Assembly (NCBI GenBank): GCA_963965975.1
Contig: OZ014416.1
Coordinates: 3,038,001-3,102,000, forward strand
Source of the DNA: Xestospongia bergquistia
Lineage: Eukaryota > Porifera > Demospongiae > Haplosclerida > Petrosiidae
Reading direction: 5' to 3'
DNA: 64,000 bases
Shown: positions 6,883-56,752 of the stretch, one piece after another
Layout: each line of letters opens with the position of its first letter
Numbering within the stretch: position 1 is the first letter of the stretch
Position numbers and translations under genes: made by a program
The notes under the pieces: model-generated
Told to the model about the DNA's origin: nothing
The model's database searches: none
The model's input: only the letters and a program-made list of their open reading frames with translations

Positions 6883-9610
6883 ATGGCTGCTTGCAGGAAA
6901 ACACTCTCTGCAGTGTTGTACGGCAAAGATGATTTGAGACTGGTAGGTTGATTATAAGATCAACCATTGTATTATTGTATAATATTGTTAAGGTGGAAAA
7001 AGAGTTGATTGAACCACACCCCAATAAAGGAGGTAAGTTGATAGCATTAAACTTATTTATCACAATTCAACCTTATAAAAGTCCTTACTGAATATATTAT
7101 AGCGAAGCGAGTAGATGTCTAGGCAATTTCTTTTGTGCCAAAAGTCTCCTTAGCTTCAGTAGCCAAGTTCTCCCCTAAAATGGAGTGTAACTAAAGCCAT
7201 GATTACTTTCCTGATCATGTTGCTTCAGTAAAGCACACCACACGAGGTTTATCATTTTGCTATAAGGCATAGCTTAAACATTGATTATTATCTTGGTAGA
7301 AGGTAATTATATTATTGGTTGCTTTGTGCATTGGTACTTATTAAGTACCAACGACTGCTCACATACAATGTGTAGTTTAATTTTGTGGTCACTAATGGTT
7401 ACTTGCTTTACATACAACAATAAAATAAATAATACAAAAAGGAAATACACTCTCATGCTTAATAATAATCATATAAGTGTTTGCAAATAACAACTTTCAA
7501 GGTGTACCTTATTGTTCTTAATTATATTTATTGTAACATTCTATTCTAAAATCAGCTTATCTCATGTTTTGCATAAAATAATAACCTCAGCTGTATATTA
7601 TTGTTGAGAAAAAAGTTTGATAAGATATGATCTCTGCCCTAACTATTATTATACCATGATTGAAAGTATAAGATAAATTTGGTTACATTTTATAGAGGTT
7701 TTACTGGCAATACAATCTGTTGGAATTTGTGGAAGTGATGTTCATTTCTGGGTAGATGGACATATAGGAGATTTTGCTGTTACAGCTCCTACTGTAATGG
7801 GACATGAGTCTAGTGGATTAATAATGGCAGTAGGTGAAGGAGTGACTCATCTTAAACCAGGTAATTTGCTGCTAAGTATAAGATTACATTAATATGTATT
7901 TGTATTAGGAGATCGAGTTGCCATAGAACCAGGTGTTCCATGTTATCAATGCTCTTACTGTAAAAGTGGTCGCTATAATCTTTGCCCAGATGTTAAGTTT
8001 GGATCAACTCCACCTGTTAATGGTTGTTTGACACGCTTCTTTGTTCATCCTGCAGACTTCTGTTTCAAGTACATTTGTTGTACATTAATGGTCATATCCC
8101 TTAAATCTTTTAGGTTGCCCAATCATGTTTCCTTTGATGAAGGAGCACTGGTTGAACCAATTAGTGTAGGGGTGTATGCCTGTCAGAGAGCTCAAATAAA
8201 AGCTGGGAGTAGAGTACTTGTATGTGGATCTGGTATGCAGATTTCTAACTATATATAATTTTATTATTACATTTAGGACCAATTGGCCTTGTATGTATGA
8301 TGGTCGCTAAAGCTTGTGGTGCATCTGAAGTAATCATTATAGGTAACTCTGTTTGTCTATATAATTATGTTTTTACTATGTCAAAGCATGTTGGTTATAT
8401 ACCTGAGTAAAGCCCTTTACCTTAGTATCTATACTTACATGTTCATAGATCTTGATATGGAAAGATTAGAAGTTGCCAAGAAATGTGGTGCTGATCATGT
8501 GCTTCAAGTTAAAACAACAGATAGCAAACAATTAGCTCAAGATATTACTGACTTACTTGGCTACAAGCCAGATCAAACAATTGAATGCACAGGAGCTAAG
8601 ACAGCTATTGCGACTGGAATATATGTACATGTAGTCTTGTTACAAGTGTTCTATCTCATATTAATATTATAGGCTACTCGTTCTGGTGGAGTCCTAGTTT
8701 TAGTTGGGTTAGGTGCTTCTGAGGTTGCTCTACCAATTATAGATGCAAGTGTCAGAGAAGTAGACATCCGTGGAGTCTTTCGCTACTGCAACTGGCAAGT
8801 TTTTAAAAAACCTCAGATTTATCATGTAAAAGTATGGTTATGTTAGAACACTGTAATTTGATGACTCCCATGATGACTATAGCTATGCAAAGAGAATGGC
8901 ATAGTATATCAGTAGTCTTTACCTATATTATATTACTGAAATATGATCATTTATACTAGGCACTGTTAAAATAGATTGGTTGTTTTAACCAATTCATTTA
9001 TCCCCATTAAATACATTAAAAAATATAAACAACTTCACTGTTATGATTACTGATTACTATGAAGTTCTTCATCGAATGATTTCTCATAAGGTATGAATGT
9101 ATTATTATAGAGAATCCTACTATAAATTCCTTAGTTACAACCTATACACACAATGAAACAACAAATTTACCATAGTGATAGCCCTCATTTAACTAATAAC
9201 ACATTGAACATAATCTTCATTATTCTAACAATTAACTAATTACTGTCAATCAGCATATAATAGTGACAACAATGTGATGTCAATGTCTTGTCCTGTGTTT
9301 TATATACAACATAATTTGGCTAAATCAAATGATTTATTTTTACAATGCATGCATGCATGAACTATGTTAGAAAGTGAATTTAAAATTATTTATGTTCATC
9401 ACATGCTCATATAGTAGTAGTAATACTCTTTGTTAATTTTGTCACAGTTATCCTGCAGCCCTGGATTTGGTTGCATCAGGATGCATCAATGTGAAACCAC
9501 TGATCACTCACAAGTATAAGCTAGAGGAAGCAGTTACAGCCTTTCAAACAGCCAAAACAGGAAAAGATGGAGCGATTAAAGTAATTATAAACTGTGCAGC
9601 TGATGAATAA
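6883..9610 (+). CDS. SORD: Sorbitol dehydrogenase / zinc polyol dehydrogenase
   Basis: Nine exons: 6883-6942, 6993-7032, 7696-7860, 7909-8068, 8114-8232, 8277-8342, 8449-8624, 8673-8794, 9448-9610; 356 residues, essentially the human length. It oxidises sorbitol to fructose with NAD+ in the polyol pathway. The catalytic zinc set is visible: [11 protein letters not shown] (Cys), VMGHESSG (His, Glu) and the following [12 protein letters not shown] (Glu). The Rossmann motif GSGPIGL is followed by an acidic residue in [10 protein letters not shown], which favours NAD+. Unlike human SORD it keeps four structural-zinc cysteines ([15 protein letters not shown]). Intron 8 begins with GC instead of GT (8795). 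The tail [18 protein letters not shown] is typical of the family. Confidence 0.93.
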
Positions 9611-9999
9611 TTATAGTTATAATATCTGATTGATAAATTATCTTTACAGCTGAGTCTTTTTGCCTAACATGTCTATATACACAAATAATTTGAATGTGAT
9701 TATTACCTAGTTCAATTAATTAATATATTTATAATCTTAACACTTTGATCACTCTAAAGTGATATTTGGGTAAGTTACTAAGCTTACAATCAAATTCTAA
9801 TCAGTGAGTCATTGCATCACATATTTAGTACATAACAGGCAGTATCCAATGTCTAGTAATATTAACTTACGCGAGAGGACGTATAGTTATTGCATTAATG
9901 AGTAATTTGATGGTATATGGTGCCAGTTCTCTTACGTCATAAGTACCAGTGTAACGTTACAAGTAATTATAGTACCTATTCTATGGCCTTTCGTAGAAA
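9611..9999. promoter_or_regulatory. Intergenic: SORD 3' side and receptor A promoter
   Basis: The first half is AT-rich 3' flank of SORD. At 9931-9943 lies CTTACGTCATAAG, containing the CRE-like core TTACGTCA, 57-69 bp before the receptor A start. The identical 13-mer occurs in the PDE7/LRR spacer (56681-56693). No other gene was seen here. Confidence 0.4.
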
Positions 10000-10501
10000 A
10001 TGCTCCAGATTGCAACTCTATTTTCTCTATTGGCGGTTACTCTGACTGCTTCAAGCAAATGTGATAAATTTGTTGGATATAGTAACACAGGTATTATTTT
10101 GTCTTAAAACTCGTTGTATAATTCTCGCTTTAACAGTCAATCAAACCAAAGATTACTTATTCATCAATGCTAGTTGCATTAATAATTCGTATGCAACTGT
10201 CACATGGAGACCAAAAAGAAATGTCAACATATACCAAGTAACTATTGAATATGCGTGTCGCAATACATCAACAAGCAGTTTGGTTAGTCTGTATATAAAT
10301 AATTCATAGTGTTAATCTACCTACATATAGTACAATTTATGCATGCATGTTTCAATAGAGACTTGTTCTCTTTTACTCAACATATTTCTTCCTTTTACTG
10401 TTTGGTGTATGAGTGTCAGTGATTTCATATTTAATGTTGTTGGATTCCAAAACACACTCCTACACCAATGATGAAATGTATATATATATAGATTGCAATA
10501 T

Positions 10502-10551
<50 letters not shown>

Positions 10552-13000
10552 TAGAAATAACTGAGTGTAGAATAGCCAGATTAAAAGCAATTTATTATAC
10601 TGTTATTAAATGCTATATTACAACTAACATTTCATTCACTTTTCACATTTTACCATTGTGCTTACAGCTTCCTGGCTATCCAAAGTATCTAACACAATTC
10701 TCTCAATTTCTATCTCATACAAAAGTTATTACTGACCTACCACTTGCTGAGGATGTGATATGCACATTTTTTGGTTGTGTTCTGGATCTTAATAGTGGAG
10801 GCTACTACTATCCTAATGAAATGACTGATCAGTGCTCTTTAGGTGGAGAAGAGATATTATATTGCTATATAATGTTATTATTATCCTTTCAATATACCAT
10901 TAGGTCTAGAGACTACATCATCTTCCTTAACATTTACAATGTCTACATTATATAATACGGTCAAGAGAACAAGTAAGATCAATGTACCTTCTACACTTTC
11001 CTCAATGTCCAGTTATCCCTTTATCTCTACCTAGAGACTACATCATCTTCCTTAACATTTACAATGTCTACATTATATAGTAGAGTTGATAGAACAAGTA
11101 AGATTAATGTGCTTTCTACACCTTCCTTCGTGTCCAGTCATCCCTTTATCTCATCTTCACCTATTACTTCAATTCGGAATAGTTAGTGTGTTTCTTTGTT
11201 TTAATGTTATTATATTTATTTACTACAGATAAACAAATAATTATTATATTTTTTGTTGTATTAATTATCACTGCCTTAATTTGTCTGGGAACCATGTTTG
11301 TTTTTGTTGTTGTCATTTATTTTGGCTACCAGAAGCAGACAAAAAGGTTAGTAAATATGAAGCTACGTTAAAGTATGTAACTATAAGCAATGTGATTCAC
11401 TTGTAATTGTAGGTTATCACATTGTAAAAATTAGAAATAAGTATCTATAAGTCTCTAAGAAATGAAAAATATTATTAGTTACTTGACAATGAGATTTTGA
11501 CTGCTCTATCACTTCATAGGTTAATTACAAGTCATGACATGGTCACCTTCAAAAAGGTTAGTTATCCAATGAAGCATAGTTCACTAATAATTAATATGAT
11601 TACGTATTATTTTTATTACTATTAAAATCAAGAATAACTGGTTGAACTGGCCAATACTAAATAAAAATTAAGTTATTCAATGAAGCATGGCTATTGGAAT
11701 TACAATTATTAAAGGAAAATTCTTGGTAGCTAAAGTCACTTTTGCGCTTTGCAAGTATTGTTTATTTAAGACTAATCAAAGTCATAACATGCAGCTTTGG
11801 AGTTTTTACACCTGGTCTATGATTTGTATTTTCAATGGAACAGTTATGATCATCCACTCATTATCTAATGTAAAGTTTATACAGAAGCATGCGATGCTAA
11901 CTGCCTTATAGTAATGTGTACTACATTTTGTGATTGTTATCATGATAGCTTCTCAAGTCTTTTACTCAAATCTGGTCATACATTTTCTTTAGGGCAACAT
12001 TGTCAACATCAGTATGTTTGATGACATCAGTATCACTGGGTCTATCGTTACTATTGAACAATCACTTCAAATTGCATCAAGTGCTATAATACAAGAAAAA
12101 AACATTGACTCGGATTTTACCAATTCTCTACTTCATTGTGATAAAGAGGTTATACCCATTCCACCAACACACATCACTTTAGAAAAGGAGACTGGCAAGA
12201 ATTTTCCTAAGAATACATTTAAGATCTCTCCTTGCATTTCCAAAACTGAGGCTTTTCCTCGTGATGATAATCATTTTATTAATGAAACCACATTAAATAA
12301 AAGTAGCAATGATGATCTTACAGCTACTAGAGTATTCCGTAGATCTCATGTGTCCAATTGCAATCCTCTTGCTAAACATGTCTTAAATTATACATCTACA
12401 TTGATTACTCCAGATTCAGAAAATGGCACAAACTATGTTCAGACCACTAGTGGTATAAGAAACACCAGTACAGATTATGTTTGTGACACTAATGATTATT
12501 CTTTGAATAGGAGACATGACTTGGCAGCTAAAGACACCAAACACCAGGTGCTTCATGCTGACTTGGAAATAGACTTACTTCTTGAATACAATGATATTGA
12601 ACAGTACGATTCTCAAATGATACGCACAATCTCTGATGACTGTACCACATCAAATCCACCTTCACGTCCACATGAAACTAGCTATGTTCATCATGAACCT
12701 GAGATCCACCACCAATCTGCTGTTGCAGCAAACTATCTATCAGCTCAATATTTAAGTACTCCCTCAATGACAAGTCATAACTTCTGTTCAACAACAAGTA
12801 TTGGTCCTGTTGCAAAGACTCCACGGTATTCCAGTGAAACTGACTATATCCATCTATCAACTGACACAGATGTTAGTGGATCGTTTTCTCATCAAGATTT
12901 AGCTTTTACAAACGGGTCCAAGCCATCTTTTGAAGCGTCGTGGTTAGAAACAAATATTTGCGAATCTGGTGTTCCAATTGCTGACAGTTATGTCAACTAA
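10000..13000 (+). CDS. Receptor-like protein A: single-pass membrane protein with long Tyr/Ser-rich tail
   Basis: Unrecognised family. Eight exons: 10000-10090, 10137-10282, 10668-10842, 10904-10972, 11035-11097, 11229-11346, 11520-11556, 11993-13000; 568 residues. Signal peptide (MLQIATLFSLLAVTLTASS), a roughly 100-residue ectodomain with six Cys (KCDKF, NASC, YACRN, ICTFFGC, DQCS) and N-glycosylation sequons, a Ser/Thr stalk on two near-identical exons, one helix (IIIIFFVVLIITALICLG...), then about 350 cytosolic residues with scattered Tyr motifs (TDYVCDTNDY, TSYVHHE, TDYIHLS) ending DSYVN, a Grb2-SH2-like YxN. A 46-bp first intron. Intron 2 holds a (TA)n tract. Exon 4 may instead start at 10910, dropping two codons. 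Minus-strand gene 39817-43203 is its paralogue with identical intron phases. Ligand and function unknown; signalling is inference. Confidence 0.75.
10505..10548. repeat. (TA)n microsatellite
   Basis: Uninterrupted AT/TA dinucleotide run of about 44 bp in intron 2 of receptor A. It creates spurious Tyr-Ile repeat frames on both strands. Confidence 0.95.
10906..11160 (+). repeat. Tandem duplication of stalk exon plus flanking intron
   Basis: Two imperfect copies with a 125-bp period (copy 1 from 10906, copy 2 from 11031). Each has a 63-nt exon core and the following intron start (gtaaga...). Both exons are phase 1-1 and encode nearly the same peptide (TTSSSLTFTMSTLY then NTVKRT or SRVDRT). The second exon uses an acceptor ctag whose counterpart lies inside exon 4 in copy 1. 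Confidence 0.9.
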
Positions 13001-18700: not shown

Positions 18701-30310
<11,610 letters not shown>

Positions 30311-39816: not shown

Positions 39817-42800
39817 TCATTTCATTATTGTTACTGGTATTTTAGTCATGTAATTTTGGCAAACTTTTCTTGAGATATGTTCGAAATCAGTTTCACTATT
39901 ATTAAGGGATGTGTTGTTAATGATGTTGTCTTCAGTACAGAAGTCGTATTCTTCATTTTCAAAATCATCATCATCTTTAAAATAGACAGGTGTATTTGAG
40001 TAATAATAATTACTGCTATCTGAATAATAGGCAGAGTCCCTGGTAACATTTGAACTGTCTGAAGTAATGTAACAATCTGATGGACAGTAATTTGACGTTG
40101 ATGGAAGAAATTTAATATGTGTATTTTCTTCTTGATGATTTTGAAAGGGACTGCTTGACAGTTCATTTGAATGATTAATTGGTGAAGTGTTTGTACGTGT
40201 ATTATTATTAAAAGGGGATTGGTTGGGTATGTAATCATTACAGGTGTCCTTAGTGTATAGAGTAGAATATCTCACATAACCATCGTGTGAAGAATGATCA
40301 CAAGGCTCATTTGTCTCATCAGTGCAAACTTCAAGTGCACTAGTTGATTGTACTATTGTCTTGTTTGAGTTTTTAATGTCACTGCTATCAAATGCTTGTA
40401 TTATAGATTTTGAATCAGAGGAATTGGGTGTATCATCCTCGTATTCAACTAGTTCAGTTTGTCTCCTGTTCATTTCAGCTACTGATAAAGTATCATCTCT
40501 TTTGATGCTGCTATAGTCTGATTCAGCTGTGACAGTTGTCAGTTCTAGTGAGTGTAGTATTGTCACCAATGAACTTGATGTACTGGTATTACTTAAAGCA
40601 TAAAAACTAAATGACTGTACTCCATTTGGTTCCTGTGTAGAAATATGAAGAAATGAAATTATCAAGAAGTGAAATTCAGGAAATCAAGATATAAATTATT
40701 AGTGCTTGTAAATTACAAGTAAACAGAAAGATTTTTAATTAAACTATTGTCCTTCTTTTCTGAGTAACACAGCATAGACATTCACTGAAACATTATTACC
40801 ATACAAACTATAATGAAAATGCTACAAAACCTGTTATTTTCAAAAGGCATAGAGTATAAAATTTTGTATCATTGGATGTCTGTACTCCGTTGCTTCCTTA
40901 CTGGTTTGTGTTGGGAGTTAACCTGATTTTCATCCTCCAGAAAAAACATATTTTTTTCTCTGTAAGTAGAAATAGATAACATTTATATCACATTAAACTA
41001 ATACCAATACATTGCTAACATGCAGTTCTTCTCATGAAGACATTCTAGAATTGATTATTTGTAAAGTATGATATATGCTCCCTTTCTTAACAGCATACAA
41101 GAGTTCTTAATAACATTAACAGTAAGGACAATATCCTCCAAACATCAGTCTTATCTAAAATTAAAATGACACTAGAAGATTTGGCAACAACAACACACCC
41201 AACAAACATCTAATTACATCAGACGTGACGTGACTTCCAGGAATGTTAACAACAAAAACTTACAAGGAAAGTCTTCTTTTCCATAATGTTAGACAAGATA
41301 TCAGCAAGGCTGCCAGACTTATTCCTCCAATAAACACAACCAGAATTACTATTACAATTGTCACAATTATCATAGTAATATTTCTGGAGGTGTCAGTAAC
41401 TAATATAAAATAATACAGATATTAATAACTTTACTTATACAAACAAAACATACAATACAATAAAAATATTCCATACATACCATTTGGAGTATTTGTCACC
41501 ATAGCTTGAGTCGAAGTAGTTATCACTTTAGATACAAAATAAATAAAGATGATTATGTTTTAAAATGGTACAAAATAATAATGTCTCATTTTATGTATAA
41601 AGCTATTGGTTGCTTATTATGTGGTGACAGGACATTAGGCAGCTGGCATGTCTTTATACATAACTAATGTAGTCCTATATGTATTACCTTTCAGAGTGTT
41701 TGGATAATATTTAATAAAATTAACATGCTAGTATGGTGTACCAATCAAAGTGAGCCAAAAGAAAGATCCTGTATTGTTAACATAACTAGTTTAACACTTA
41801 CTGTTTATTCTTTTTATCGTACTGGTAACTGACACTATAGCTGATGAAGTAAATGTAGTGTCTATTCCAGACATTAACGAAGTTTGTATAGAAGATGTAA
41901 TACTAATCTCAGGAGCTGGTGTTGACAATGTCATTGTGCCAGATGATAATTGCTGAACAGCTAGAGATAAAACATATACATTTTATTAATGTATTAGTAT
42001 TATGGCAGTAGCAAACAGGCCTGGGGTCAATTACATTGCAATATAATCTATTACTATTACTTCAAAATTTTCCTATTACTATTAATATTACTATTACTGG
42101 CTGAATTCATAGTAATATATTACTATTACTATTACTTGAAGTCTATTGGGTTAAGATTTTGTAATTTGTATTTAAGAACTTAAATCAAGCAGTAGTAACA
42201 TCACTAACATGTCCATTGCATTTATGGCAATTAGTTTTTGAAATACAGAGTCACTCAGGGATCACCTATCAGGTCGGAAAATCTTACCCGCTATACTGAA
42301 CAGCCGCTCTACAGGGGCCGATGATGTAATAGAGATGTAATATGAAATTACATATTACTTTCCCTTCTATTATTATTACTATTACTATTACACCACTATT
42401 TTCAAACATATATTACTATTACTATTACTATTACATGAACAAATATAATCATTATTATTACTATTACTATTACATATTACTACTACCCCAGGCCTGGTAG
42501 CAAAACAAAAACCAATTGATCACCTGTTTCACAATTAAAACAAAAACAAATGTCCTTAATTAATAGTAATTTACTACTTTACTTTTAAAGTCTTACATTC
42601 TAGTCTGCAAACATCAGTATCAGAGATGTTGTGCCATTCTCGATTATCAATGAAAACACAACCACTAAACTTACAATAAACTAAATCACTGATTGGTAGT
42701 CCGGCTCGAAAAAGTTTTTTGTTAGCATCAGATTTTACATTCTCTTCTTCATGAATGAGCAAACCTACTTTTGGTTCACTGAACTGTAAGAGATGAATGG

Positions 42801-43203
42801 CAAAATCACATTGTGACTGCTAATAAGGATATTGTAGTGAATAGTAAGACTATTTACTCAAATTAAATCAGATATGATAACGACTTCGTCGGTCTGCTAG
42901 TGTTAGACACATTCATTGTATAATCTTACCAAACTCCCATTTGTGTAGTAGCATGTGTAGTCAATTGTCAACGACTGAATGGTTGAATTGCTACGGAATG
43001 TGTAGTAATATACTGTTTCATCTCCACAATTTACATCAAAATCAACATCATTGATAACTACGATAAAACTTACATATAAGTTATAATCGTTCATCTGTCT
43101 TACTTTCTCCAGATATCGAGTGCAAATAACACGGTATTGACCACACTTTTCCTAATTGAAAAAACAACCAGACACAGACAGTAAGCACAGCTTCAAGTTT
43201 CAT
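39817..43203 (-). CDS. Receptor-like protein B, paralogue of receptor A
   Basis: Unrecognised family. Eight exons in transcription order: 43104-43203, 42930-43057, 42597-42783, 41802-41960, 41481-41525, 41264-41399, 40923-40959, 39817-40632; 535 residues. Signal peptide (MKLEAVLTVCVWLFFQL), Cys-containing ectodomain with the same landmarks as A (VNC, DYTCYY, VYCKFSGCVF, DVC), Ser/Thr stalk, one helix (IIVTIVIVILVVFIGGISL), a basic KRR stop-transfer, and a tail of about 285 residues rich in Ser, Asn, Asp and Tyr (DGYVRYSTLY, NDYIPNQ, NYYYSNTPVYF). Intron phases 1,0,1,1,1,2,0 equal those of A; exon 7 is 37 nt and intron 1 is 46 bp in both. Intron 3 carries a hAT element. It shares a 379-bp divergent spacer with DUSP12. 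Confidence 0.75.
42008..42504 (-). mobile_element. Non-autonomous hAT element with transposase C-terminal relic
   Basis: Element 42016-42496 (481 bp) has terminal inverted repeats CAGGCCTGGGGT at both ends and is flanked by a perfect 8-bp target-site duplication GTAGCAAA (42008-42015 and 42497-42504). Both features define hAT superfamily insertions. On the minus strand, 42336-42262 encodes SAPVERLFSIAGKIFRP followed by DR and a stop, the end of the hAT transposase dimerisation domain. The rest is dominated by ATTACT-type repeats, so it is a deletion derivative unable to move by itself. It lies in intron 3 of receptor B. Confidence 0.93.
42040..42485. repeat. (ATTACT)n-type microsatellite arrays inside the hAT element
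   Basis: Two blocks of ATTACT/ATT-rich repeats (about 42040-42135 and 42355-42485) on either side of the transposase relic. They probably grew from the subterminal sequence. Confidence 0.8.
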
Positions 43204-43582
43204 TTTGCAGACAAGAACGCGACAATTTGCCCCTTGCACAGTTTCGTCATTCAAAGTTCAAGGACGCACCCACCAGTGTTACGCCATACTGGAAGTTGAC
43301 AGTGTAAAGTGGTAAGTTTGATAGGGTTAATTGTTAATTCGTTTATGTTAAGGATGAAACCTGTAGTTAGTCTACCTGTATACAAGGCTTACCTTCCCTA
43401 GTGATATAGTTTGTCTGCTCATTTGCCTTCTGTTATGATGAAAGTAGTTTTTATGTTTACAATTCTCAAACTATAACAGTGACTACTTCATCCTGCTGTG
43501 TTAGTTCACCTACATATTGTGTACATGTGTGTGTGATATAATGTATATGTCCTTGTCATAGATTTTCATAAAAATCAGAAAG
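43204..43582. promoter_or_regulatory. Divergent promoter receptor B / DUSP12
   Basis: 379 bp between start codons. It contains a CACCC-type GCACCCACC box at about 43267, then AT-rich DNA. No extra exon was seen. Confidence 0.4.
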
Positions 43583-46100
43583 ATGGTGGAAGTTACACCA
43601 GGATTACTCATTGGTGGTATGGGAGATGTTTTGTATCTTCTGGGTAAGCACCCACCTCGTAGAGTGACTCACCTACTGTCTATTGTCAACAAGCCAATTG
43701 ATTGGTCAGAAATAAATACATCTCAAGGTTCCTTGATGGCAAAATTGGTTTCTGCTGCTGATATACCATCAACAGATCTTTTAAGTCATTTCCCCAGCTG
43801 TACAGACTTTATTATGGAAGGGTTGACAGATGGAACTGTACTCGTTCATTGGTGAGGTATTAGTAGAATAAACTAGCTCATATTAACCAATTAATACATT
43901 GTTACAATCCCTTGTCTTTACAGTTCCTGATACTGTCCATTCTATGACTAGTTATGCTCTATAGTTTGTGTATCTTTTTATCAATACCACATTTTATTAT
44001 TTCCATGTATTACTAAATTTACAATAAAGCAATAACTTAAGTAAAGTATCATTATAATGGACAATCCCATAGAGTGTTGACCAATCACATTCCTCTCTTT
44101 AGTATTCATGCATGTCTTCATTATCATATTTCTTTATATCTACATATAATAAAATAACATTTTAAATTGCTAATGTTATTAATCAACTCACATGTTTCTA
44201 ATTTTAGTGAGTATGGTATATCTAGAAGTTCAACTGTTGTCCTGGCTTATCTTATGAAAATTAAAAATTGGTCTTTAAATCCAGCTCTGGAATTTTTAAA
44301 GGAGAGAAAACCTGATGTAAGGTTAGTACCAGTTGTACTGAAAAACCAGAGTGAACATTAAAGTGATTGCTAAGAGTGATACTTTGCTGTACTTAAGTTT
44401 TTAGTTGTGATTTTAACTGTTATCAACTTTGCTGTTTTTAATATCAATTAATTGTTATTAATTAGCTTTGTTGTAATTCTATATTGTCATCAAAAATAAT
44501 CTTATTATTATATCAAGACCAAATGCAGGATTTATGCAACAACTCAAACTGTGGGGATTAATGAAGTACAAGTTAGATAATGGACACAAAGCTTATCGAG
44601 CTTATCAACTTCACCATCAAGCTTATCGTATGAAAGGTATTCAAATAACTAGCTAATATGATTATGTAGTATCTGAGCACAGATGCTGGTTATATAGAGA
44701 CTATGAACATGACTAGTGACCCCGCAGTCTGTCCTGTCGAATCATCTCTTTCTTTTAGCTGTAGAAAGTGCAGGTACAAATGTAATAAATAATATTGATT
44801 TGAATATTGATTTAATACTAGTGTTTTAATTTGTGTGCTCTTAGAGTTTGTATTTCATGTGGGTAATACACCTAATTGTAGTTTAAGCTGAATGCCTTCA
44901 AAAGATAAATCACAGTGTTGTTTTCAATGTTCTGTTAATAAGGCCTACATTATAAAGATTATTGATCAAAAGTAATGTTATTGTACCTTAGATATGTAGC
45001 ACTAACAATAGAATGCTGATAAAGTTATTAATAACATTTTTATGCATAGACGACTACTATTTAATGACAGCAGTATACTTCAACATGACCCAGGGACTGG
45101 CTTTTCTCAACAGCATGATCAATATTGGTGGGTACATATTATGGAGAGTCGTGTCAAAGAAGTTGAAAATATAGATCTTGTTGAAAGAGCTGGTGAACAA
45201 CAAACTACTAGTCAGGTGGTTATTGTGAAGTGGTAACTTAAAAGTCACCATTAACTGTGGAGATTTGCATTAAATTAGTTTAATAAAATACTCAAATTGG
45301 TTCTCTACAAAAACAAGCACTTGTTTAAACCACATTATTTGTTGTTTATAGGTACCCTCTGATGAAGAATCTATAATACTAGACAAGGTGAAGCAACTTC
45401 GCTGTGACATTGTAACAATGGCAAAAGGATCACATGATCCTCAAGTTACCTGTACTTCTGTTTTTGTTGAACCTGTTGAATGGATGGGTCCATTGTTATT
45501 AGGTCACAAAGATGGAAAGGTAAATTTGTTTCCACAAAATAAATTTTATTATTATACTAGATTGTATTATTGCTCATTGTGTTTTTATACAGTTGTTGTG
45601 TCCCAAATGTACTGCTAGGATTGGTTCATTTGATTGGGCAGGTCAGTTTAACTATTACTATTCACAATATATTCATTGATTATGTACAGTACATGTGTCA
45701 CCATTTTATGTGGCTACACAGGTGTAGGAGAATAATGTTCGTGAGATTATTATTATCATGTAACATCAGTTTCTATTCTATTAAAATGGCATAGATCTAA
45801 GAGGTGTTTAGAATTTTTTAGTTAACATTTCCTTTTCTGAAGCACTCAAAACAAGACCAATAGAATGCCTTTGTTAATGGTTATGGAATTATAGTGAACT
45901 GGAGAAAAGCAAGCATTTTTCACTGGTACATTTCAATGAATATCTAGGCCACCTTACATAGGCGGTTTTATCACATGCCTGCTACAATATAACCTTATTT
46001 TTATTCTTAAGGAAAACAGTGTTCTTGTGGTCAGTGGGTTACTCCAGCTTTTCAAATACACAAAAGTAAAGTAGACATAACTCATACTAAATTGAAATAA
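43583..46100 (+). CDS. DUSP12: Dual-specificity phosphatase 12
   Basis: Eight exons: 43583-43851, 44208-44321, 44518-44636, 44728-44773, 45050-45215, 45352-45519, 45593-45641, 46012-46100; 339 residues against about 340 in human. N-terminal phosphatase domain with active site VHCEYGISRSSTVVLAYLMK (CxxGxxR), and the general-acid Asp region at SAADIPSTDLLSHF. The C-terminal zinc-binding domain, special to DUSP12/YVH1, has CRKCRRLLFND, LLCPKC and CSCGQWVTPAFQIHKS. YVH1 orthologues act in late 60S ribosome maturation as well as dephosphorylation. The catalytic Cys codon is split by intron 1 (TG|T). The 46-nt exon 4 was found by phase; its acceptor is cccgcag. Confidence 0.94.
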
Positions 46101-49100: not shown

Positions 49101-51790
49101 CCAAAGCTAATTAGTGTAAACTGTAAAGTCAGTGACAGTGATTACAAAGATTATCAATCATAGGAGTCATACACATGAGTGCTAACTTACTTCTCCATAC
49201 AATGTTGTTTGAATATGTGAGATTCTATGGGCAACCTAGTAAAGGAAACACTAGTTAGGTAGAGTACTTTAAATAATTACAGACCTTCATTGTGTTTTCC
49301 TCAGCAGTTGGAACATCAGAAATAAGACAAATACCAGTGTAGTTGAGATAATGCAACCAACTAGAGGAAACAATAACAGTTCCACTCATACTGTACATTA
49401 ATTGCTGTAGATTTTTGCTTCTTAGAATACACCTTAACAATTGGGACACACTTTATATAATTAATTATGTAAAAAGGGAGTAGGCAAACCTGGAATGTAT
49501 GTTACAAAGTGACAACGTAGTAAATGATACATACAAAGAGTTGTACATGCCTTCATAGCATGTGAACAATACTCTGGTGTGCAGTACAAATAGATTTCAA
49601 ATTACATGTACTCTGTTGCTATCTAAGGTGCAGTAAAAATTTTCAAAAATGGATGTCATAATTACAAAAACAAAATCTCAATTGTGATTTGACAAATAAT
49701 TAAATGATAATTACAGTGTGATGGTATCTACAAATTAATTACATGTATTAGCACAGCTATACTACATTAGAAAAACAGGTAACCATTATGCCAACTTGAC
49801 ATGTTACCTCCATAATCCTTCGTGTGATTCCATAACATCCTTATATTGCAATGTAGGTAGTGCTGTCTACAAAAATTAGCTTGATTACATAGAAAAATTA
49901 AAAACATACTGCTGAATGGTTAGGAGCAGATTGTTGAATGTCATTTTCAAGTGTTTTTTTTGTCATATCTGCTATTAATTAGCCATGAAGTATCAAAATG
50001 GCCACTATGAATTGGTGTGTTATTTCTATTCCAGTTCACTAGAAGTTGTGAATCTATGAAATATATAATATAAGAATGATAATAGTAATCACGTTTTTGG
50101 AAATGTCAAACAAAAAGAAAGTTACTGTAATCTGGATCTTTATCAATGATTATACCTTAATGGTTTGGATCATTACCAAAACCCTACTAAATGGTGAAAA
50201 TCATCACAAAAAAGGATTACATACCCCAACTAGAGAACCTCTTTAACGTGACAACAAAACAGTAATAATAAACTGGTAGAGTTAATAAGCATTCCTCAAA
50301 TTTTGCTTGAAATCGAAGAAACTAAAACCTACATTTTTTCTGCATATGGTATGCTGTTTAAGTAATAGAAATTAAACAGAGTTAACAGGAGGTGCTGGAC
50401 GGGCAAGGAATGCCTATTAGCAGATGGAGACAGTGAGACACTACTCTAGATATTTAGGCAAAGTTACCTTGTGTCCTTAGCCAGAGAATCTAACTAACCT
50501 CTCACAGTTTGTATGGGTAAAGAGTCACTTATGTTTCTTTCTTTTACTATCATGCATAACAACTGTATTTGTGAATTGAGAAAACTGTTACTTTAATGAA
50601 GTTAGTAAGACTCATTCCATCTACACTTAAAAGAAGAAAGCTCTGCACCTTGAAAATCATACCCTAAACAGTGAAAGTAGAGAAAAGAGTGGCTAGAGAA
50701 AGTATAACAGAAAAAGAAAAGGCAGCGTCATCTTATTCCAAACCTCACTTGATGTGTGTGGGTTAAGTACTTGTAGAAGCTATTGGTTCAGTAAGCATAC
50801 TTAGATTTATAAGGTCTAGTATGGTGTCTGATGATCGTCATCATCAGATACTTTTACACTGTTACCACATTGCGGGAAATTTTTGTATATTGTGAAGGCT
50901 TCCTGGGGTGTTACAAATTAAAAGCTGCAAACTTTTATTCTTTGGCACATGCTTATATGAAGTTGTGTTTGATCTACAATAACTGTCTATTAATACTTTA
51001 ATCCAGCTACTGACCTTCCAAATCCTAATGATTTATTGTCCAATTTGCAATAAATGATGCAAACGATGCAATAAAATTCTCCAAAGCCTCCAAAATCTGG
51101 AGGTATGCACGTCAAGTTCATACCTAAGAAACAAGCAGTTATAGCTCAGTATGCTATGCTGTATAGCATTAAGGTAGCTACCTGTCATGGCTTCAATTGT
51201 AAAGAATGCTCTTCCATGACTACTACTACTATAGAGGATATGGTCAGTCAGAAATAAAAATGAAAAATTTAGAATTTTGAAATATAATTCTAAAAGATTT
51301 CGTAAATCTCATCAAAAATTTGCACCACTCAAAACTTCCCACTAACGGTACTAGACCCCACCTCTACATGTAAACCATATATACTTGAGTGTAAAATGCA
51401 CAGCCAGTAGTGAGCCACTTGTGTTACAGGAATATTTAATTTAGACTCAAATTAGACTAAACCATAGTCCATGGTTTAGGAAATGAACTCTGAGGTCACT
51501 ATTTATAGGGAAACAAGGAGATAATGTCACTCACCATTGAGTGAAGCATTTCCTATTGTCAAATCCTTTCGTAAATCCTTTCCACTAACTGTCTTCTGTC
51601 CACTAGTGGACCGACATGTACAGCACTGGCAGTTATGACGTAGCCACATGACGTCATAATGAGCATTGTTTCCACTTTCTGTGAGTAGTTGAAGGCTTCT
51701 ACCATCAGAACTGACTCTAACATTAGTGATAGAGCATACAGCTCTAGTCCATCTAAGCCTCAAGGTCCGGAAAAAAACACACGAAAGCAT
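46161..51790 (-). CDS. BBOX1: Gamma-butyrobetaine dioxygenase-like, with apparent frameshift in exon 2
   Basis: Twelve exons: 51535-51790, 49910-50038, 49808-49866, 49285-49360, 49191-49235, 48730-48854, 48001-48141, 47171-47231, 47067-47120, 46897-46965, 46318-46422, 46161-46271; about 409 residues if the frame is kept. Fe(II)/2-oxoglutarate oxygenase of carnitine synthesis (BBOX or trimethyllysine dioxygenase). The N-terminal zinc domain has MWLRHNCQCCTC and HSGHFDTSWL. Catalytic ligands: LELHMDLLYYQSPPG (H-x-D) and RRILHGRRSF (distal His, then Arg for 2-oxoglutarate). Sequence favours BBOX; the Arg-rich, acid-free N-terminus (MLSCVFFRTLRLRWTR) could be a mitochondrial presequence. Exon 2 is 129 nt where the phases demand 128: an A8 run (49954-49961) shifts the frame into a stop. 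See findings. Confidence 0.85.
48244..48625. mobile_element. Long-TIR palindromic element (Mutator-like MITE)
   Basis: Element 48254-48615 (362 bp) in a BBOX-like intron. Arms 48254-48416 and 48453-48615 are 163-bp inverted repeats, nearly identical, beginning TAGTCTCGCGTAGCCAGC and, in reverse, TAGTCTCACGTAGCCAGC, with a 36-bp loop. A perfect 10-bp duplication TCTTCTAGCT flanks it (48244-48253 and 48616-48625). Long TIRs with 9-11 bp duplications are typical of MULEs. No coding capacity. Confidence 0.9.
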
Positions 51791-51909
51791 GAATCTTTTA
51801 CTGTATCTATTACATACAGTATACAGTGTGATACAGGGGGCGTTACATGCTATAATAACAACTTACATTCGGTTAAAATACCAAAAAGGGGCGTGGTGGG
51901 TGTAGCTCG
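51791..51909. promoter_or_regulatory. Divergent promoter BBOX-like / sarcoglycan
   Basis: 119 bp between start codons. It contains GGGGCGTGGTGGG (about 51890-51902), a KLF/CACCC-type box, close to the sarcoglycan start. Confidence 0.45.
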
Positions 51910-53324
51910 ATGATGGAGAACAACAAGTGAGTGCCCTCACATTGATTACCTTAGTCTTTGTTAACAACTTAACATTCTATTGCTTCTCTTTCTATGCAGG
52001 ATTTCTGCCAATGTTGCTGTTGGCATTTATGGTTGGAGGAAAAGATGCCTCTATTGTCTCCTTCTGTTGCTGATTGTTCTCATATTAGTGAACTTATCAT
52101 TAACTGTGTGGATCCTAGTAGTACTGAGGTTTAACATTGTAAGTGCCAATCCTCATCCAAGTAAAACATAGTTCTCAGGCTCAACTTGAATTCTACCCTC
52201 TGATATTAGGACAAATTAAGGCAACTTTAGCTTCAATCTTTTAGATGAGTATTATACTCATTTAATAAATTGTTGTACATCACTACAGGATGGTATGGGC
52301 AGTGTTAGGATTACAGAGAATGGATTGCAAGTTCAAGGAGTATCTGAATTTCTAAATACTCTTTATACCAATGATATTTCTATGGATGAGGTATGTTTCC
52401 ATTCTTGGAGTACAGGATATATATTAAAACTTGACATGTTACATGGATTATGAAGCTGCAGACAGCAGTCAATTCCACAGTCCAACTAATGTACATGTTC
52501 TTTTTACCTTTCATATGTGAAATTTATCACTAAGCAGGAAATGCAGTAGAACTTCTGCTTAGTCATGTGTTCCCGACTTTATAAAATTCATTCTGATTTT
52601 ATTGTTATAGAACAGTCAGTTACAAATTCGATCACACCAAGATATTACAATGGAAACACAAGGAAGCATGTTGGAAATATCATCATCTCATATTAAAATG
52701 TCATCACAGAAGTTCAGTGTATATTCAAATGCCAGGTTTGTAGTGTACATACTGGTTGATTTCACACCACTCCATAGTTAGATATAATATGTAATATTTC
52801 AATTATTACTATAATAGGCCTAACATGAATGCACTCTTCTCTGTGCAGTCTAATGGAGAAGTGTCTGTTGCTTCATCTTCATTATATTTTGAGGGGTCTC
52901 AAGGAATTTCAGTTCTTAAGGACCTTGAAACTGGTCAAGTGACAGATTTGAACAATAATGGTATTCAATTAGAGTCATTCCGTGGGGATATCTCCCTGGC
53001 AGCTGATAAAACACTATTACTGGATTCTAGAGACAGTTCTATAGATCTTTTAAGTGGGGAAAATTTGACATTAAGCTCTTATAATGGAATGGTATGCTAA
53101 GCTTACTCCATTTTTATTATTGTACTCATACATAACAACAGATTAGTATTTCAGCTGGATCTGTTCTATTTGAGTCTCTTCCTTTGTCTACACAAGTGGG
53201 AAATCCCTTGTCTGATGTCTACCATTTGTGCATCTGTCCATCAGGAAAGTTATATCGAAGTTTGGCAAACCACACAAATCCACAAGGATGCTTGACTTCT
53301 GAAAACTTTTGTGAGAACATATAG
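51910..53324 (+). CDS. SGCD: Sarcoglycan, delta/gamma type
   Basis: Six exons: 51910-51926, 52000-52138, 52289-52390, 52611-52735, 52818-53091, 53142-53324; 279 residues. Type II membrane glycoprotein. Residues 14-20 read [13 protein letters not shown], the conserved juxtamembrane motif of delta/gamma/zeta sarcoglycans, followed by the helix [20 protein letters not shown]. The extracellular part is made of short beta repeats ([17 protein letters not shown]), and the C-terminus carries the Cys cluster ([24 protein letters not shown]). In muscle animals it belongs to the dystrophin-glycoprotein complex; in an animal without muscle it would link matrix to cortex more generally. Exon 1 is only 17 nt. 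Which of the three paralogues it matches best cannot be decided by eye. Confidence 0.9.
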
Positions 53325-53567: not shown

Positions 53568-56500
53568 TCAATCAGAGTCTGAAGATGAAGAAGAGAGAGT
53601 CTGCTCATCCCAATAAGACTTATTAGTAACAATATTGCGACACAGTTGAACAGAAAGTGGTGAACGTACAAACTGTGACCAAGCCTTGAAAAGAGGGAGG
53701 GCTACAAATTCAAAGAAACAAGATTGTGCCTTAGGAATGGGAGTGCTATATCGATCACACAGCTGAGATATTGGTAGGTTACGATGTCTCTCTAAGTCCC
53801 CTTGCTGGAAGAATTCTTCCATGATGTGTTTACTCCATTGTCGACTTAAGTTTAAAGATCGTGCTGGATTACTAATATCAGCAGTCTTAATGGCCATCTG
53901 AGGAGAAAGACAAATATCACATGGTTTTCTAGACGAAGATTAATACATGCCTACAACTAACATAAAGTGAAGATTCTTAAGCAATATATAGTGGTATATT
54001 ATTATCCTAGAATACATGATATAAACTCACCATTAAAAGAAAGTGTCTCTCCACTCCATTGGATAAATCAATCATATGATCAGAAACAAGCATCTCTTCA
54101 AAACGATTCATGAAGTCTTTATGTCTGCTCACATCAGTTGCTAGAATTAGGTCCTCAATGAGAGATATGATTTCTTTTCTCTGTAACAAAGATAAATGAT
54201 CTAACAGACCAGATTCTTTCAAAATGGCTCTGGATGAGAAGCAGTGATGTCTTTCCAGTAGACTGTGAGTCTATAAAGAGAGGAAGAAGTGATCACATGA
54301 TTTCCCTTCAGTTTACATGTTTGGTTATCAATAATTCAATAATTTAATTTAGTGACTTGGAACTTACTCCATGAATGGTTGCTAAGTAGCTAGAAGTATT
54401 AACAAGGTAAGTCTGATTGACACCTGGATGATCAAGATCATGACAAATTGCAGCCAAAAATAATGAAAGAAGTTCAACAGGAGAGAGTGAGCTGTAAATC
54501 TGAAAAAAGGAGAGAAAGGGACAATAAAAGCCTCAAACGAGTGACTTGTGATGTCAGTGTTTAGAGTTACTTTAGTTCAAGTTACTCCAACATTCATAGG
54601 TAAAGCTATCATTCAGTTGGTCATGTAATTTGACCTACACCAATCAATGAACTCTACATGCCTACTGTAACACAATGATCAGTCTGTACGACAATCATGT
54701 CAGGGGACCACAAAATGCATTCACCAGAAAATCACTTACAGTGCAGTCAGATATCAAACAGTGAAGGGCTTGTGCTACATCTGCAGCATGGGTAGAGTTA
54801 TGATAGGAATTTTCAGGATGATAATTATCTTCAATTTGTGTCAGAAACTTGTGCAATTTAAGGACGTTTAAATCAAAGTGTTCAATTAAATGATGTTTTT
54901 GAAATAAATGTAGGCCCAAGTGAAGCAAAGGACGACCTATAAAAATCATAAAAGTATAGCTCTTTAAATAGAACTGTATAGTTTCAGATGACATAATTAC
55001 ACAATGAGAACAAGAACTAAGTATATATGGCTTATGTACATTACCATATATATAGAATAGTTGGGAAATTCTATTATTTATAATTTAAGTAAGATACATT
55101 ACTCACCACATAATTTATATTTTAAATGATTAATTTAGATTTATTATTTCAGACTAGAATTCTATTTTAAGCAAGTCTATTATTTCAAACAAAGCGAAAG
55201 CTTATGAAGTCATAATGATGATGCTGTTTGACAATAAACACGTAACAATATTATTTGCATAGTGCGATGTCCTATTACATTCTAAAGTTACACTGTTAAC
55301 AATAAACAATGGAAAATATAAATTTATCCTCCAATTCAGTAAACCAGTAGTGGTCTATTATATTACATGGTACACATTATTTCTATGATCAATCTTTAAT
55401 TTTAATACTTTGATATGTTATTACATACCTTTAGTTATCCTTCGAAAAGCAAAGATGTCAAAGTCCCAGCTGTCCACATTTTTAAGGATATCCTGTAAAA
55501 ATAAACCAGACGTATCACAATAATTATAGTTGTCATAACAAGAATAAATTATATTAATATTTTTAAAACTTGATTAATTGGCTTTGTAATATTTATTATA
55601 ACACAATTGGTACACTTAGTAGCATGACAGTTAAGGATACCAGATTGAATGTTGTCATAAATAAAAGGATATAGGTTCAGCAAATTAACTAGTACTATGT
55701 GTGCAAGCTGAATACATAGTCGGGAGTTACATCATCTCCTGTTAACCACAAATGATTTTATCTGTTATTACTTCATGTGTGATGTTAACAACTTGTATTT
55801 AAGTTTTAAATAGCCTTTTGAACATCAATGTACACCAATTTCACAATTTCATACCTTAACATCCACATGTTCTTCTTCTACTCCTATGCATTCAATGACT
55901 GAGCCCTTCAATAACTCCTTAAAGCAGTTTGAAGTGGTAGCATATTTAATAGAACCTCGTCTACCATGCCGGCGAGCAATAGACAGCTTAGCCACTGAAA
56001 CCAGAAAGAAGCAATGAGGTCTATTGACACCAAACTTAAAATTCAATTTTTGGAAAGGAATTACAATTAGGGGGAGTCAACCATACTATTAATAATGCAT
56101 TGTTGGATTATTAGGGAATTATAATTGCATACACAAACATACACACACACGATTAAGACAAAAAGCGGTCTAGAAATGCCTATAATATAAACAGTACTTA
56201 CATTCGTTGCTAGGTAGTTCTGGCAACTCCCGTTGGCAGGCCACATTTTCTCTTTTAGCTAAAGCATCACCTAAAAGATTGATTTAGACTTGCGGTTTTT
56301 GGTCATAAAAAAACTTACCGAGATACCTAATGTACAGAGCACATGCATCACTTCTGTCATAGCTAATAGCTCCTCTTCTCTTCATTCTTGGTCGAGAATT
56401 GTAGGGCGACTCGCCACCGTTGCTAATAGCATGTCGGCGTCGAGATAACACGGCAGAAGGAACCTGTTGATCCAATGGAAGTCTAGGAAGCTCGCTGATA

Positions 56501-56601
56501 CTATCGAAATCAAGATTCCTCAGTGCAGGATGAAAAGATTCCATTTGTAACAGCGGGGCTGCACTTGGTATGGGCATATAGCTTGTAGTTGCTGTAGCCA
56601 T
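53568..56601 (-). CDS. PDE7: cAMP phosphodiesterase 7
   Basis: Eight exons: 56319-56601, 56202-56270, 55855-55994, 55429-55492, 54740-54936, 54368-54499, 54031-54270, 53568-53897; 484 residues. Hydrolyses cAMP to AMP. Catalytic core motifs: YHNSTHAADVAQALHC and CHDLDHPGVNQTYL (both HD metal sites), ATDVSRHKDF, KTADISNPARS (third metal Asp), and PKAQSCFFEFVALPLF with the purine-selective Gln. Assignment to PDE7 rests on the N-terminal RRGAISYDRSDACALYIRYLG-type block, which in PDE7A1 is a PKA-binding pseudosubstrate; a second RRGSIKYAT in exon 3 has a phosphorylatable Ser. The Ser/Asp-rich C-terminus is variable in the family. It shares a 151-bp divergent spacer with the LRR gene. Confidence 0.93.
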
Positions 56602-56752
56602 AACTTCACCAATTTGAAATTACGATCGCAATAGTTTAAGTGAAGGTGTAAGCTTCTCGTATTTATAGGGCAAACAATTTCTTACGTCATAAGAGTCATG
56701 ATGATAAAATGCAATAATCAACAACCCCCAGACCCTCTGAATTGTCGAAGTC
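56602..56752. promoter_or_regulatory. Divergent promoter PDE7 / LRR gene with CRE-like site
   Basis: The 151-bp spacer contains CTTACGTCATAAG at 56681-56693 (reverse core TGACGTAA, CREB/ATF-type), about 80 bp from the PDE7 start. The same 13-mer lies upstream of receptor A. A TATTTATAGGG element is at about 56660. Confidence 0.5.

Follow-up and report, generated by a model that had tools for sequence, protein, structure and literature searches.

What kind of cell-surface receptor is encoded by two similarly built genes, here called A and B, in the genome of the sponge Xestospongia bergquistia? Both lie in the window analysed here, a stretch of 64,000 nucleotides (nt) at C6:3038001-3102000 of a 146.46-Mb genome assembly of 21 contigs, the same assembly that was used in all genome searches. 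That A and B belong to a family of paralogues with a common architecture is nearly certain. The mode of action is most probably that of cytokine receptors, and the fuller proposal, in which A and B are members of a multigene type I receptor family working like a cytokine receptor cut to its membrane-proximal half, has about an even chance of being right. No description of the A/B family was found in the literature surveyed, the coverage of which lacks most subscription journals.

Gene A, on the forward strand, begins with its ATG at 10000, has its stop codon end at 13000 and encodes 568 amino acids; gene B, on the reverse strand, extends from 43203 down to 39817 and encodes 535. Each has 8 exons (Table 1). 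Both models, predicted from DNA alone, were rebuilt base by base from GT-AG sites and hand-chosen. All 14 introns are GT-AG, the intron phases (1, 0, 1, 1, 1, 2, 0) are identical in the two genes, and both have an exon 7 of 37 nt and a first intron of 46 base pairs (bp), so that the common blueprint put forward in the preliminary description is reproduced by the rebuilt models. On the assumption of independent phases, the probability of seven identical ones by chance is about 5e-4 to 8e-4, a value that is a rough guide only because the models are hand-chosen. In gene A, a 125-bp tandem duplication (10906-11152, 2.0 copies, 88% matches) doubles the stalk exon to give exons 4 and 5.

Direct alignment leaves A and B within the range of their shuffles, with a score of 54 for the ectodomains (shuffles mean 28.8, maximum 60, n=500) and of 90 for the proteins up to exon 7 (mean 38.4, maximum 91, n=300). 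Against a profile of 13 other ectodomain rows, built without B, B scores 38.7 bits, compared with 11.5 for the best of 1000 shuffles of its ectodomain and 7.5 for the best of 23 FN3 domains. Since B stands far above its shuffles against a profile of relatives, A and B are, on the sequence profile and not on pairwise alignment, homologues. An ectodomain alignment of 11 of the 17 loci (C11a, C11b, C11c, C1b, C6b and C6d were left out) contains eight invariant residues, five of them cysteines: C13, Y38, C40, C80, F82, G84, C85 and C104 in the numbering of the A ectodomain. The landmarks of exons 2 and 3, namely CxFxGC, an EYxC-type motif and a terminal Cys, are present in all 11 rows, A and B included, and the earlier observation that the CxFxGC and YAC/YTC cysteines of A and B align holds for this wider set.

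Residues 1-233 of A gave 35 genome matches at E<=10, A's own exons among them, in clusters on C11 (0.77-0.78 Mb), C3 (7.37-7.39 Mb), C1 (17.04 and 17.05 Mb), C10 (5.39 Mb) and C6 (1.29 and 2.93-3.00 Mb), and B gave 6, all its own exons. The queries C6f and C6a added exon-3 matches at C6 2.989 and 2.999 Mb, together with a tail-only stretch at C6:3120696-3121208, about 19 kb beyond the window end; against the C6a query this tail-like exon matches at 85% and 93%, much like the C6c tail. Counted by exon 3, there are at least 17 ectodomain loci (on C6 A, B and six others; on C11 four; on C1 and C3 two each; on C10 one), which is a lower bound because the genome search scores only the best candidates, and an additional exon-2 fragment lies on C1 at 22.98 Mb. 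The duplicated family of cell-surface proteins, single-pass and with Tyr-rich tails, first suggested from A and B, is supported by profile homology, these loci and 12 compared tails. The pattern found no match in viral, bacterial/archaeal and phage collections, where 20 stretches gave 0 confirmed cases and one 40-residue query had no match.

Complete models of exons 1-8 comprise A and B, exons 2-3 were modelled in 12 paralogues and exons 6-8 in 9. Exon 3 starts with LP[DG]YP in 9 of the 12, and candidates for the transmembrane exon and the small exon 7 were present in all 9 paralogues searched, exon 7 being picked among several candidates by a shared peptide pattern and a GTTAGT-like donor. 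A, B and the candidate exons of all 9 show a transmembrane exon running from phase 1 to 2, an exon 7 with a length of 1 mod 3, and a phase-0 tail exon opening with a Ser/Ser/Leu box; because phases were imposed in the search, this agreement is a matter of consistency and no independent proof. Exon 7 measures 40 nt in C3a, C3b, C11c, C6e, C6a, C6b and C6c, 43 in C6f and 49 in C10, and candidate first introns, found in 11 of 12 paralogues (C10 gave none), span 48-164 bp with none of 46 bp. These lengths rule out the 37-nt exon 7 and the 46-bp intron as family constants. In a maximum-likelihood tree B sits on a very long branch, and of the 10 inner branches 7 are open and 1 has a star. Within the C11 cluster (L032/L033), C11c has an in-frame stop in exon 3 together with a tail exon that counts among the 12 tails, and C11a, C11b and C11d have a visible transmembrane segment with no tail box found. 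Retroelement-like open reading frames (ORFs), recognised by eye, lie between or beside family members (L042 1818-5028 and L044 3-1286, oriented).

Two features stand out when the cytoplasmic tails are compared. Near the membrane lies a juxtamembrane box with the consensus D..S...S[IV][VI]T[IVF]E..L, counted in 11 of the 12 tails compared (all except C6x, which belongs to C6d). Both Ser and the Leu are kept in each of the 11, the Asp in 10 of them, the Glu in 9. In addition, tyrosines recur in the motif [DG]Y[ILV], which appears 28 times over the 12 tails against 2.8 expected, 23 times against 2.0 in the 8 less redundant tails, and 15 times against 1.6 once the repetitive C6f is removed; none of 1000 shuffles reached the observed count in any of these sets. 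YxN falls below chance over the 12 tails (5 against 11.2), as does Yxx[LI], and YxxQ is without enrichment. The depletion of YxN speaks against Grb2 docking as the meaning of the tails, and the C-terminal YVN of A, originally taken for a Grb2-SH2-type motif, is better read as a Tyr-aliphatic site, since YxN is rare and [DG]Y[ILV] enriched. Matches of the box profile to syntenin-1 (E 0.64 and 0.72) were taken as chance, and an equation of the box with the pocket-binding Glu of IFNAR1 Box2 was dropped, as Glu497 lies elsewhere according to the available part of PMC5394478. In C1a and C1b, where the usual tail was not found, an ORF that by eye resembles a Death domain follows the transmembrane segment at a distance of about 1.6 kb (L038 5193-5519 and L039 5711-6001, numbered along the reverse strand in the 5' to 3' direction). 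The idea that these two genes carry a fused Death domain was rejected, since Pfam gave nothing at E<=0.01 for the copy on L038 and no exon link was shown.

An alternative reading takes the family for variable immune-recognition receptors, whose fast-changing tandem ectodomains would bind microbial or self ligands above immunoreceptor-like tails, with no cytokine-like ligand. The gene clusters on C11, C3, C1 and C6 fit this account, and nonsynonymous divergence (dN) is close to or above synonymous divergence (dS) in 4 of 10 ectodomain pairs (dN and dS of 0.094 and 0.062 in C3a/C3b, 0.086 and 0.083 in C6a/C6c, 0.081 and 0.067 in C6a/C6d, and 0.035 and 0.014 in C6c/C6d). However, dN is below dS in 5 of the 10 (0.009 and 0.052 in C11a/C11d, 0.42 and 1.53 in A/C3a), with one pair identical, and in 6 of 7 tail pairs, both counts resting on few sites with no significance test. 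Spacings of immunoreceptor tyrosine-based inhibitory motifs and of Yxx[LI] are likewise without enrichment, and an immune-recognition role is considered unlikely.

The ectodomain is probably a single FN3-like domain, as predicted for one paralogue, C6a, whose modelled structure is a seven-strand FN3 sandwich. The tied fold matches give cytokine receptors no preference over other FN3 proteins. A hidden Markov model (HMM) built from the genome's own FN3 domains gives A 7.4 bits, above all 300 shuffles. A number of results weigh against an FN3-like assignment. The model is of a paralogue, not of A or B, and includes a 26-residue intron insert; the first AlphaFold2 model had a predicted local distance difference test score of only 37.5; and Foldseek returned no match at E<=0.001, with glycosidases or channels among the rows listed. 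Pfam gave nothing significant in the 11 ectodomains (fn3 in 0 of 11, one CRLF2_D1 at E 1.9) and a PDB sequence search gave 0 matches at E<=10. An FN3 profile is weak on exon 2 (P 0.0045, reversed-FN3 control 0.016), on exon 3 (P 0.31) and on exons 2 and 3 combined (0.014, control 0.018), and with the HMM the scores of the 11 other rows were reached by 2 to 75 of 300 shuffles, some reversed rows scoring higher. The earlier statement that the ectodomain has no link to a known domain stands for sequence searches, Pfam recognising no domain in A or B, and gives way for structure, where the C6a model is FN3-like with moderate confidence.

FN3 domains are often adhesive, and at least 150 FN3 matches occur in this genome (150 of 2143 candidates were scored, all above the cut-off). 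A single such domain on a stalk could serve adhesion or allorecognition, binding neighbouring cells with the tail as a scaffold. The conserved juxtamembrane box and the repeated Tyr sites suggest signalling instead, and a function in adhesion or allorecognition is improbable.

With an FN3-like domain, a Tyr-rich tail and a cytokine-receptor-like layout, A and B are candidate tyrosine-phosphate signalling receptors, and phosphotyrosine signalling by the family is marginally favoured. The putative chain starts with a signal peptide, followed by one FN3-like ligand-binding domain with conserved cysteines; a short Ser/Thr-rich stalk then leads to a single transmembrane helix and a kinase-less tail. 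For its action we infer that a ligand or partner receptor would cluster the chains through the FN3-like domain, that a tyrosine kinase of the cytosol, either already bound to the juxtamembrane box or drawn to it, would phosphorylate the repeated Gly/Asp-Tyr-Ile/Leu/Val sites, and that SH2 proteins, with STAT among the candidates, may then dock at these phosphosites. The genome contains one STAT domain match (E 2.7e-14) and at least 156 matches to tyrosine/serine-threonine kinase-family domains (129 of 1201 candidates scored), tyrosine kinases only in part. Two findings detract from the mechanism: [DG]Y[ILV] is modest in single proteins, with 2 occurrences in A (reached by 13 of 1000 shuffles) and 2 in B (27 of 1000), and three JAK-specific Pfam families gave nothing above the cut-off in an exon-by-exon search, which can miss them and was silent in control genomes too.

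Tyrosine-kinase-type domains are numerous in the genome, and two lie 7-14 kb downstream of C6e in the same orientation (C6:1295896 and 1302394). They raise the further idea that family members serve receptor tyrosine kinases as co-receptors or decoys without a kinase of their own and are trans-phosphorylated by a partner that has one. C11a, C11b, C11d, C1a and C1b, which have an ectodomain with no tail box found nearby (a transmembrane segment was sought in four of them and seen), are compatible with this. Twelve tails have nevertheless been kept, including that of C6e with its own stop codon, and no kinase-bearing gene with an A/B-type ectodomain appears among the kinase matches listed, where no systematic search was aimed at one. 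A co-receptor or decoy role is very improbable, and signalling in the manner of a cytokine receptor is the preferred reading.

Table 1. Exons and juxtamembrane boxes of genes A and B, with positions counted from the first letter of the window.
Feature	Position	Strand	Description
A exon 1	10000..10090	+	start codon, signal-peptide-like start, first Cys; phase 1 after
A exon 2	10137..10282	+	FN3-like domain (predicted), first half (Trp, Tyr landmarks); phase 0 after; fold from paralogue
A exon 3	10668..10842	+	FN3-like domain (predicted), second half (DLP...DVxCxFxGC...C); phase 1 after; fold from paralogue
A exon 4	10904..10972	+	Ser/Thr-rich stalk, phase 1-1
A exon 5	11035..11097	+	tandem copy of exon 4
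A exon 6	11229..11346	+	transmembrane segment; phase 2 after
A exon 7	11520..11556	+	37-nt juxtamembrane exon; phase 0 after
A exon 8	11993..13000	+	cytoplasmic tail, 12 tyrosines
A juxtamembrane box FDDISITGSIVTIEQSL	12017..12067	+	
B exon 1	43104..43203	-	start codon, signal-peptide-like start; phase 1 after
B exon 2	42930..43057	-	FN3-like domain (predicted), first half; phase 0 after
B exon 3	42597..42783	-	FN3-like domain (predicted), second half; phase 1 after
B exon 4	41802..41960	-	Ser/Thr-rich stalk
B exon 5	41481..41525	-	stalk
B exon 6	41264..41399	-	transmembrane segment; phase 2 after
B exon 7	40923..40959	-	37-nt juxtamembrane exon; phase 0 after
B exon 8	39817..40632	-	cytoplasmic tail, 17 tyrosines
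B juxtamembrane box LSNTSTSSSLVTILHSL	40546..40596	-	

Elsewhere in the window, neighbours recognised by eye are sorbitol-dehydrogenase-like (7893-9620), DUSP12-like (43562-43855), butyrobetaine-dioxygenase-like (51033-51862), sarcoglycan-like (52220-53100) and PDE4-like (53568-56619). A 530-residue stop-to-stop frame on the reverse strand (698-2290) looks glycosyltransferase-like by eye and has no Pfam match at E<=0.001, and a 54-nt minisatellite occupies 27385-27601 (4 copies, 93% matches). The genome search also met an open frame of 41,554 amino acids on C13, around 5979001-5980500 (L078). The 1500 bases read there contain no N, one stop-free frame and, by eye, repeated domain-like units; if real, the frame would encode a giant repeat protein, longer than titin, from a gene without introns.

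The class I cytokine receptors IL2RG, IL7RA and EPOR resemble A and B in being single-pass and kinase-less, with a tyrosine-bearing tail and an FN3 domain adjoining the membrane. If one IL2RG intron lies, as we assume, after c.594 in phase 0, and if our presumed assignment of IL2RG exons to domains is right, the class I layout from signal peptide (SP) through transmembrane (TM) and juxtamembrane (JM) exons reads SP-1-D1a-2-D1b-1-D2a-0-D2b-1-TM-2-JM-0-tail, and that of A and B reads SP-1-FN3a-0-FN3b-1-stalk-1-stalk-1-TM-2-JM-0-tail. From D2 onward the two orders agree save for the phase-1 stalk exons, by a criterion that is our own unpublished definition. The short juxtamembrane exon measures 70 nt in IL2RG (855-924), compared with 37-49 nt in the A/B family, and all these lengths are 1 mod 3; the strand-B Trp and strand-C Tyr are 15 residues apart in A and in IL2RG D2 (13-17 across the family); and the phase-0 intron follows the strand-C Tyr by 10 residues in A, 9 in B and 9 at the presumed IL2RG site. 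The remainder of the comparison uses IL2RG introns after c.115, 269, 454, 757, 854 and 924, in phases 1, 2, 1, 1, 2 and 0, as given in the available part of PMC9304939, and IL7RA introns after c.82, 221 and 876, in a gene of 8 exons with exon 6 transmembrane and 7 and 8 intracellular, from the accessible text of PMC6966522.

It is rather probable that this match of layouts is a coincidence, a question that touches descent and not function. Phase-1 modules are common, so that three phases are informative (0 inside FN3, 2 after TM, 0 after JM); these would match by chance with a probability of about 1/27 in a comparison made post hoc, the human layout is partly presumed, and the Trp-to-Tyr spacing varies within the family. 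The separate short juxtamembrane exon of 1 mod 3 length and the position of the phase-0 intron behind the strand-C Tyr, with its presumed IL2RG counterpart, match as well and speak against chance. Invertebrate genes, as far as the available part of PMC1963337 goes, offer both patterns: in Drosophila Domeless one exon encodes the whole cytokine-receptor homology domain, which favours coincidence, and a Ciona gp130-like gene retains a vertebrate-like splice structure.

Several differences separate A and B from class I receptors and count against the proposed likeness. Class I receptors have two FN3 domains, two Cys bridges in D1 and no stalk exons; A and B have one FN3-like domain (exons 2-3) and extra exons 4-5 encoding the stalk. 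No W[SG]xW[SG] was found in 14 of 14 ectodomain rows, and none of the 11 juxtamembrane stretches, each about 60 residues long, has a PxP Box1. The hydrophobic-then-Glu box early in exon 8, with the Glu in 9 of 11 tails, bears a loose likeness to Box2, whose definition in the part of PMC5394478 available is too loose to tell either way. The defining list for class I receptors includes two FN3 domains, WSxWS and Box1 (PMC7444064, seen in extract). Since WSxWS, the second FN3 domain and Box1 are absent, A and B are cytokine-receptor-like and not class I receptors.

Common descent with class I receptors, from a single-FN3 ancestor with the D2-TM-JM-tail blueprint before D1, WSxWS and Box1, and with A and B as receptors upstream of sponge STAT, appears doubtful. 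A 2026 survey, in its accessible part, places JAK and STAT in Porifera and traces the IL6 receptor only to molluscs (PMC13203501). A kinase-less, single-FN3, Tyr-tail family with a cytokine-receptor-like layout would be a concrete candidate for the receptors upstream of JAK/STAT in sponges. In the case of homology, the cytokine-receptor exon blueprint would go back to early animals; in that of convergence, one receptor design would have arisen twice.

Among other systems, the FN3 domains of CRLF3, receptor phosphatases and Robo2 are without a sequence match to the ectodomain, and the architectures of these proteins are presumably other than that of A and B. Class II receptors (interferon and IL-10 receptors), with phases 1-2-1-0-1-0 in the available part of PMC8863823, are alike in having phases 1-0-1 around the second FN3 domain, on our own reading of the domain assignment, and phase 0 before the tail. 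They differ in having two FN3 domains and a transmembrane exon followed by phase 0, with no separate 2-0 juxtamembrane exon. In sponges themselves, the accessible text of PMC8242945 notes a sponge-specific receptor diversity for Halichondria panicea, with its receptor tyrosine kinases and 'putative cytokine receptors'.
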